Assembly (NCBI RefSeq): GCF_030055635.1
Contig: NZ_JASFYM010000017.1
Location: 1-46,841 of the forward strand
Direction of reading: 5' to 3'
DNA length: 46,841 nucleotides
DNA from: Methanothrix sp.
GTDB taxonomy: Archaea > Halobacteriota > Methanosarcinia > Methanotrichales > Methanotrichaceae
Under the pieces are notes generated by a model. That model did not search any database, was not told the DNA's origin, and was given only the letters and a program-made list of their open reading frames with translations. The position numbers and the translations under genes were made by a program. Below, in pieces: positions 43,472-45,409 of this stretch. Position 1 is the first letter of the stretch, and the number at the start of each line of letters is the position of its first letter.

Positions 43472-43618
43472 GCTCCTTCACATTCCAGGCCGAGTTATGT
43501 GTCTCAAACAGCCGGTAGCGGGTCCTGCAGAGGCACATACTGCACCGCCGACGCTGTTTTGAGATCTCCCATTGTGCGGCTGCGCTGACAGCACTGGATA
43601 TTATCTGGACTTAATGTG

Positions 43619-43660
43619 ACTTCCTCCCTTCCCCTGAAGGGGAAGGGCTTCCTGCGCTTC
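43619..43660. repeat. Right-end hairpin of the TnpB element
   Basis: CCCTTCCCC pairs with GGGGAAGGG around TGAA, and is followed by CTTCCTGCGCTTC. The left-end copy at 44946-44986 has the same order of blocks in the same orientation. Subterminal hairpins of this kind mark the ends of IS200/IS605 elements. Confidence 0.65.
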
Positions 43661-43789
43661 GACTTTGTCGAAGCCTCTCGATTGTATCGAGAGCCGTCGA
43701 AGCCCTTCGACGAAGTCGAAGGTTTCATAGATCCTGTTATCCAGTATGCTTCTACTAACGTAGAAGCAGCGGCTACTTCAGTAGCCGCT
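43626..43789 (-). ncRNA. Probable TnpB guide-RNA scaffold: six perfect hairpins in the 3' end of tnpB
   Basis: Six stems occur in 164 bases (9, 8, 8, 8, 8 and 9 bp, all without mismatch): 43626-43647, 43656-43674, 43675-43693, 43695-43712, 43748-43767 and 43768-43789. TnpB guide RNAs are known to overlap the 3' end of the gene and to use the right end of the element as scaffold. The tail of the ORF is coded by these hairpins. The transcribed strand and end points are inferred. Confidence 0.6.
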
Positions 43790-44945
43790 TCTCCACAGGC
43801 ACTACCCCTCAGTCCGAGGGTGAGAATGTTCAACGCTGCATTATGATCTCTGTCCAGCTTGATCCCGCATCGCGGGCACTCGTGGACTCGATCCTCAAGC
43901 GTTTTCGGTACGATGATACCACAACCTGAGCACCGCTGTGACGTATATCTGGAATCGACCAGCTCAACAGACTTACCAGCCCTTGCAGCCTTGTAAGTCG
44001 TGTATTGAATCAATCGACCCCAGGAGTGATCTAAGATGTGTTTCGCTAGGCTGTGGTTCCTGACCATGCTCTTGATATTCAGATTCTCAAACACTATGAG
44101 ATCCGCTTTATCCACGATCTTCTTAGAGATCTGATGCAGAAACTCATTTCTGAGATTCCTGATCTTCTTATGGATCTTAGCGACCTTCAGCTTCTGCTTG
44201 ATCCAGTTCTTCGAGCCCTTGATCTTCCGAGAGAGACAGCGCTGTGCAGCAGCCAGCTTCTTCTCCATCCGTACGAGATATCGCGGGTAGCTGAACGTCT
44301 CGCCGGTTGAGAGCGTTACAGCGTTCTTGATACCTACATCGACGCCTATCGCAGTCTCAGGCTCGACCTTCGGCGGTTCCTCTTCTGTATCGGTGGAGAA
44401 GATCGCATACCATGCACCGGTGCTGTCGCGCTTAATTGTGCATGTCTTGATTTTGCCCTCGATCTCTCGATGCTTGAATATCCGGATGGCACCTATCCTG
44501 GAGAGTATCAGTTTTGAGCCATCCAGCCTGAATCCGCTTTGCGGATACGTGAACGACTTGTACCATCCTCGGCCCTTGAACCGTGGATAGCCTGGTTTCT
44601 CTCCGCTCTTCACCCGCCTGAAAAAGTTCTGAAACGCTCTGTCAACACGTCTGAGTACATCCTGGAGAACCTGTGAGTGAACTCCAGCAAAGTTTCCTCT
44701 CTTCTTCTCGACTACCAGCATTGTAGCCTGATCCTTGTACGTCCGGCTGATTTTTTCGTTGCTGTATGCGTTCTTCCTATCTTCAAGCGCCCAGTTATAT
44801 AGCTGCCTGCAGGTCTCCAGAATCTCCTCTAAGCGCTTGGCCTGATCCTCAGTCGGATACAGCCGGAACTTGTAGGCAGATCTCATTTCCCTCCCAAATG
44901 AAGACTAGCCAAAAGTATATCTAGTTATCCCGAAATCGTACGGCA

Positions 44946-44986
44946 TTCATCCCTCCCCTGAAGGGGAGGGGTCTTCTGCCTGCTCT
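44946..44986. repeat. Left-end hairpin of the TnpB element
   Basis: CCCTCCCC pairs with GGGGAGGG around TGAA (44951-44970), followed by GTCTTCTGCCTGCTCTTC. It matches the right-end block at 43619-43660. The tnpB start lies about 60 bases away, so this marks the left border of the element. Confidence 0.65.
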
Positions 44987-45337
44987 TCTATAAATCTGTT
45001 TGTCCAATGATTAGCAGTGTACTCGAATCATTGAGATCAACAGCATGTGACATCGCTGACTCCATGAGGTAATGCGCCTAAAGGGACTGTTCCAGTGATA
45101 CGAGTAAACGATCGAGGCTCATCCAAACGAATTAGTGGAATGTTTAGAATGGCGAAAAGAGAAGCTTCAACGGTACCGAAAATCCAGCTCAATCAAGCTT
45201 TCCGATAATTAGCGGAGATGAGCCACGATCGATAGTTCCAACTGCATACAATTGGAACGGCGGCGATATCATGACTCCACAGCTCAGTCTCCTGAGAGAA
45301 AGTTTTATCTCCGATTACAGACTCGATCTCCTCGCGC
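44987..45337. other. Intergenic region between the TnpB element and tRNA-His
   Basis: About 350 bases with no clear gene. An ORF at 45008-45073 (MISSVLESLRSTACDIADSMR) ends at TAA and recalls the start of RraA-like proteins; the next frame continues MRLKGLFQ, so it may be a decayed fragment. A 7-bp hairpin GTTCCAA/TTGGAAC lies at 45234-45257. TTTTATC at 45303-45309 may be the tRNA promoter box. Confidence 0.35.
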
Positions 45338-45409
45338 GCCGGGATAGGGTAGTGGTCATCCTGCGGGACTGTGGATCCCTCGAGCCGGGTTCGAATCCCG
45401 GTCCCGGCC
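45338..45409 (+). tRNA. tRNA-His (anticodon GTG)
   Basis: Folded by eye: acceptor stem GCCGGGA with TCCCGGC, D arm GGGT-loop-TCCT, anticodon stem CGGGA with TCCCT around loop CTGTGGA (anticodon GTG), T arm CCGGG-TTCGAAT-CCCGG, discriminator C73, CCA not encoded. Two points are odd: base -1 is C rather than the G that identifies tRNA-His, and pair 27-43 is C-T. No intron is visible. The gene lies between the TnpB element and a repeat copy. Confidence 0.9.

Follow-up and report, generated by a model that had tools for sequence, protein, structure and literature searches.

The stretch of DNA analysed here, 46,841 nucleotides from Methanothrix sp. and called the window throughout, carries on its minus strand a mobile element with a tnpB gene, inserted upstream of an xseB-like gene. 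A tRNA-His gene (GTG) is found at 45338-45409 on the plus strand, some 350 bp away from the element's left end. The main parts of the element are:

43616-44988, minus strand: tnpB-only element of the IS200/IS605 type (IS1341-like), 1373 bp, borders good to about 1 nt from a comparison with empty sites
44989-44994, minus strand: TTTATA flank directly 5' of the left end, a candidate TAM/target motif, found in the empty sites too
44950-44969, minus strand: left-end hairpin CCCTCCCC ttca GGGGAGGG, which recurs in the left ends of short derivatives in genome G044
43504-44886, minus strand: present tnpB reading frame, 460 aa, with catalytic residues D183, E267 and D347

The site is unoccupied in four related species (G042, G043, G045 and G046), where it reads ..CAGATTTATA|GTAATCCTTGA.., and G044 keeps a degenerate remnant of a tail immediately upstream of the empty-site sequence. 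The unoccupied sites delimit the element to 43616-44988 and place its insertion 3' of TTTATA without target duplication; roughly half of the left ends that were identified have TTATA in their flank. The element thus has hairpin ends, inserted 3' of a short motif and did not duplicate its target, and its protein has the domains and the catalytic D/E/D of the TnpB of IS200/IS605-type elements, which confirms both the identity of the protein and the positions of D183, E267 and D347 given in an earlier note on this DNA. A relative in G006 (L051) has a tnpA gene directly before tnpB and a right end which is 93% identical over 41 bases, so the window element is a tnpB-only member of the IS200/IS605 superfamily.

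The genome which the window comes from (G000; 1.76 Mb in 33 contigs) contains many tnpB copies and fragments. Contigs C1, C5, C7, C9, C12, C14, C15, C18 and C28 have ends inside tnpB fragments; the assembly was therefore probably broken at the tnpB repeat, and copy numbers are lower bounds. Two further copies, L010 (C15:33802) and L011 (C5:98887), are only about 31% identical to that of the window, and L011 has a left-end motif, GCAGGCAGAAGAC, similar to the one of the window element. A TnpB search of genome contigs, from which the own genome and close ones were possibly excluded, returned mostly distant relatives.

Within the 3' end of tnpB the minus strand 43789-43626 contains six mismatch-free stems in succession. 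They are listed here together with the two modules, A and B, to which we assign the first five:

43789-43768, minus strand: hairpin 1 (H1), AGCGGCTAC/GTAGCCGCT, 9 bp, mismatch-free
43767-43748, minus strand: hairpin 2 (H2), GCTTCTAC/GTAGAAGC, 8 bp, mismatch-free
43722-43704, minus strand: hairpin 3 (H3), 8 bp stem, mismatch-free
43693-43675, minus strand: hairpin 4 (H4), 8 bp stem, mismatch-free
43674-43656, minus strand: hairpin 5 (H5), 8 bp stem, mismatch-free
43626-43647, minus strand: hairpin 6 (H6), 9 bp, followed by AGGAAGTCAC and the right border; common to the family
43747-43789, minus strand: module A, hairpins 1 and 2, 43 bp, inserted after GTGGAGA and bypassing the native stop
43656-43722, minus strand: module B, composite, hairpins 3-5, inserted between TGAA and GCAGG

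The six perfect stems of 8-9 bp which the earlier note reported are real, and both the fold z-score and synonymous shuffling place them beyond chance. The minus strand 43560-43800, the segment that the note had proposed for folding, has a fold energy of -107.2 kcal/mol (z = -7.5), and none of 200 shuffles was equally stable. Among 2000 synonymous shuffles, in which protein and codon usage were kept, 1767 had no such stem, 227 had one and six had two, never more, while a non-overlapping scan finds five in the native sequence (H1 and H2 compete by one base). Elsewhere in the 46.8 kb window no stretch of 190 nt contains two or more such stems, and a search of Rfam gave no family for the hairpins.

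The origin of the stems becomes apparent when other copies of the element are compared. Siblings L002 (C1) and L003 (C5) have a tail without hairpins 1-5 in which only the equivalent of hairpin 6 is kept, and in tails from other genera (L050, L051, L059 and L061) both modules are missing and the tail is contiguous. Hairpins 1-5 are thus insertions, and hairpin 6 is native. The native stop of L002 reads ..LGLRGRACGDTG* (..GLRGRACGDTG*), and siblings without H1 and H2 stop about 12 nt past the start of H1. Since the 43 bp of module A shift the frame beyond the native stop, the apparent protein tail coded by hairpins, which the earlier note took to be coding, is not ancestral: from about codon 369 the frame is a by-product of the insertion of A and continues past the element's border. 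We rejected the idea that the long C-terminal tail is real protein, because siblings stop earlier and its own stop codon, at 43504, is beyond that border.

A consensus fold was derived from nine un-inserted tails. Besides hairpin 6 it has three stems, namely stem I (CCCTC/GAGGG), an inner stem and a closing stem (CCTGT/GCAGG), and it gives the following features in the window:

43806-43820, minus strand: core stem I of the predicted guide-RNA domain (CCCTC ggact GAGGG)
43795-43799, minus strand: 5' strand of the core closing stem, CCTGT
43651-43655, minus strand: 3' strand of the core closing stem, GCAGG

The last ~100 nt of the element form a conserved RNA-like fold which ends in hairpin 6 and is predicted to be the guide-RNA domain. 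Covariation in hairpin 6 was counted in those copies whose stem has no bulge (13 of 24); 21 doubly changed cells were found against a shuffle mean of 5.2, and none of 1000 shuffles scored as high. In L003, for instance, the equivalent hairpin is CTCCGGCC/GGCCGGAG where the window has CCCTTCCCC/GGGGAAGGG, a different sequence with the same pairing. Judged by these comparisons hairpin 6 is the element's own right-end hairpin, putatively that of the guide RNA. The RNA role which the earlier note gave to the tnpB tail is supported, at the level of a conserved fold, for the last ~100 nt, and the covariation it looked for is found in H6 as a part of the element; H1-H5 are not native, and their covariation is confined to the dispersed repeat families to which they belong.

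Modules A and B are both placed within the domain closed by CCTGT/GCAGG; A follows GTGGAGA, and B immediately precedes GCAGG. Forcing the window RNA to form the closing stem costs 3.5 of 112.5 kcal/mol in the folding model. The guide RNA might still be able to fold, with A and B as additional hairpins at its periphery. Two outgroup copies, L061 and L068, have extra length near the insertion site of A, so this spot tolerates changes of length.

Module A has been found at three sites in tnpB copies, always as a clean difference of 43-44 bp without target duplication: after GGTATA (C7, +44 bp, frame shifted), after AATGCAG (the same position in C18 and C5; +44 bp, frame shifted) and in the tnpB tail (+43 bp). 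The basic unit of module B is two hairpins of 38-39 bp together. Tails with both A and B are present at three different loci of the own genome (the window, C18 and C2), which suggests that such elements were copied after the modules had been inserted. The content of modules otherwise varies from one tnpB copy to the next, some having neither, some A only, some B only and some both.

The earlier note saw the six stems as one long and regular guide-RNA scaffold, which would be functional and under selection as RNA. The perfect stems, the strong fold, the position of A and B inside the core-closed domain and the three loci which have both could be quoted for it. The scaffold is nevertheless very improbable, because hairpins 1-5 are missing from the tails of siblings and outgroups and have inserted independently elsewhere in the genome, unrelated genes and other mobile elements included, and because a recent insertion of a palindrome predicts perfect pairing equally well. 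Hairpin chains in tnpB tails cannot safely be called guide-RNA scaffolds unless sibling copies are compared. A milder version, in which the inserted hairpins 1-5 were co-opted, now tune the stability or processing of the guide RNA and are kept for that, we consider unlikely: A and B do lie in a part of the tail that tolerates length, and two outgroup copies have other extra sequence nearby, but the presence of the modules copy by copy fits neutral cargo. The reading which we find very probable is that of a nested structure, a tnpB element invaded by the palindromic elements A and B.

The two modules belong to two families of short two-hairpin palindromes. Members of the A family are 43-44 bp long and follow the pattern AGYGGCTAC..GTAGCCRCT, then GCTTCTAC..GTAGAAGC, then A; the B unit follows CTCTCGAY..RTCGAGAG, then GCTTCGAC..GTCGAAGC. 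Pieces of the hairpin array are found at about 25 places in the own genome. A covariance model of module A (R1) matched all six genomes of the Methanothrix-like genus and none of 44 other genomes of the family among the candidates scored; on the same terms the model of module B gave strong matches only in the genus and weak ones elsewhere. These counts were made with stricter filters and with a limit on the candidates scored, and are lower bounds; many B matches were counted on both strands. Palindromes of the A and B families are thus scattered across all six genomes, and both families show compensatory changes in their stems. In G046 (L132, C1:732300-733900) two A-type modules are about 110 bp apart, and in one of them both stems have changed with the pairing kept (CAGCAGATACT/AGTATCTGCTG). 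Viral contigs gave no exact match to the pattern of either module.

It has to be considered whether the palindromes were formed locally, by template switching or hairpin-templated repair, their dispersal being convergence. Correction templated by a hairpin could yield compensatory stem changes, and H3-H5 looks internally duplicated; near-identical sequences of 38-44 bp with sharp borders at unrelated loci, however, speak against it, and we regard local origin as very improbable.

Two kinds of short repeats in related genomes also contain B. In G044 several elements (L153, L156, L158-L162, L044 and L063) consist of a left end, a B-type palindrome and a right end without tnpB; they look like internally deleted derivatives of the element which have spread through that genome. 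A different repeat of about 200 bp, with inverted ends CGCTCTTAT...ATAAGAGCG, is present in many copies in G044 and G045 (L244-L279; for example L248, ~1100-1330) with B-type palindromes in its centre. It looks like a separate MITE which B invaded and rode on.

The palindromes might also be worn ends of the tnpB element, or MITEs derived from it, moved by the same TnpA. Element and modules are alike in having hairpins and in inserting without target duplication, and the short derivatives of G044 combine B with both element ends. This explanation is nonetheless an unlikely one: no sequence likeness between the modules and the element ends is seen by eye, and B is found both on its own in host genes and centrally in the unrelated MITE whose ends are CGCTCTTAT.

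In the genus module B is present in frame in protein genes. The family-B DNA polymerase has an extra B peptide in G000, G043 and G046, and orthologues free of B are found in G042, G044, G045 and other genera. The peptide in G000 reads FER-ASTPSKPSDSVEGSESV-WRDRIK where G042, G044 and G045 have FERASESGWRDRIK or similar, and at the DNA level the difference is +36 bp in G000 and G043. The same three species, G000, G043 and G046, have sequence derived from B in frame in a gene for an RPA-like OB-fold protein, which had no match in Pfam or NCBIfam and is named by its sequence only. An IS256-type transposase gene of G000, named from sequence motifs only, contains a 39-bp B in frame, here the H4+H5 unit inserted alone. 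A dihydroorotate-dehydrogenase-like ORF in G045 has a B-derived peptide at its end. Of 19 B sequences, eleven have no stop codon in any of the six frames, compared with 9% of random 38-mers and 15% of random double hairpins, an excess which is descriptive only since the B sequences are related to each other; A sequences are not open in this way. Module A breaks the frame at two of its tnpB sites, and insertion in frame is no general rule.

In G005, from another genus, an IS256-type transposase gene (L218, L231) contains a different double hairpin which shifts the frame there, within ~10 nt of the site of B in the own genome (L034, G000 C1:159980). The near coincidence of the sites would be a hot spot or a shared preference. 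The double hairpin of G005 is a related one, so that the wider family of modules is not strictly confined to the genus.

A Y1 transposase (PF01797) is missing from five of the six genomes of the genus, namely G000 and four others, the complete G046 included. The single Y1 gene of G042, which was checked as a possible mobiliser, has no module beside it and appears to precede another tnpB. By analogy with bacterial REPs and Rickettsia palindromic elements (RPEs) A and B would be non-autonomous mobile elements, which probably move as single strands folded into hairpins, by means of an enzyme provided in trans, and which would persist in tolerant loops of host RNAs or proteins. We offer only tentatively, as a possibility with the odds against it, that they make up a lineage-specific archaeal family of mobile palindromes which is tolerated in frame in proteins and within a nuclease guide RNA and spreads without a Y1 transposase, with sites that include a replicative-type DNA polymerase and a single-strand-binding-type protein.

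If the nested structure is the right reading, archaeal proteins, the family-B DNA polymerase included, carry peptides which come from palindrome insertions, and the guide-RNA gene of a TnpB has tolerated two palindromic invaders, a natural test of how much added structure such an RNA can carry. The insertion sites present in three species and absent in three could be used for studying the mobility of a palindromic element. Palindromes that code for protein are known from Rickettsia and from some bacterial REP families (PMC10969869, PMC3733652); the literature searched contained no account of such elements in Methanothrix or archaea. A 2025 survey of REPs includes archaea with no Methanothrix listed in the part available to us, and its tool targets intergenic regions (PMC12306157).

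The RPEs are in-frame palindromes of about 150 bp in protein genes (PMC10969869). Like them, B is a palindromic repeat which sits in frame in functionally unrelated genes and is read in more than one frame, and it is missing from orthologues in the case of the polymerase and the RPA-like gene (for the IS256-type gene the comparison is by motif only); A does not behave in this way. Unlike RPEs, the modules are archaeal two-hairpin units of 36-44 bp, so they work like an RPE but are not classed as one; the comparison is one of length. The REP/BIME repeats of the GTAG and CGTC classes are, like A and B, short, dispersed and paired palindromes, and the modules agree with the usual description of palindromes of 20-40 bp which are often paired. 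Intragenic REPs have been reported in replication and repair genes by a survey, and the CGTC class is apparently without a dedicated transposase (PMC3733652). The modules differ in being archaeal and in that the Y1 transposase (RAYT-type), which accompanies GTAG REPs in their genomes, is missing from five of the six genomes; by eye, GTAG in A and GTC in B appear to lie within the stems, whereas the REP tag is at the palindrome end. Their size and the lack of Y1 in five genomes make the modules distinct from both RPEs and REPs. With prokaryotic MITEs they share being short non-autonomous repeats, but the A and B units are two back-to-back hairpins with neither terminal inverted repeats around a core nor target duplication. 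The element which hosts them resembles the TnpB/omega-RNA elements (ISDra2-like, and tnpB-only of the IS1341 type) in belonging to the guided_TnpB family and in having the catalytic D/E/D, ends with hairpins, a TA-rich 5' flank, no target duplication and a structured right end overlapping the 3' end of tnpB; it departs from them in that its right-end RNA domain holds two kinds of invading palindromes and its native stop is bypassed.
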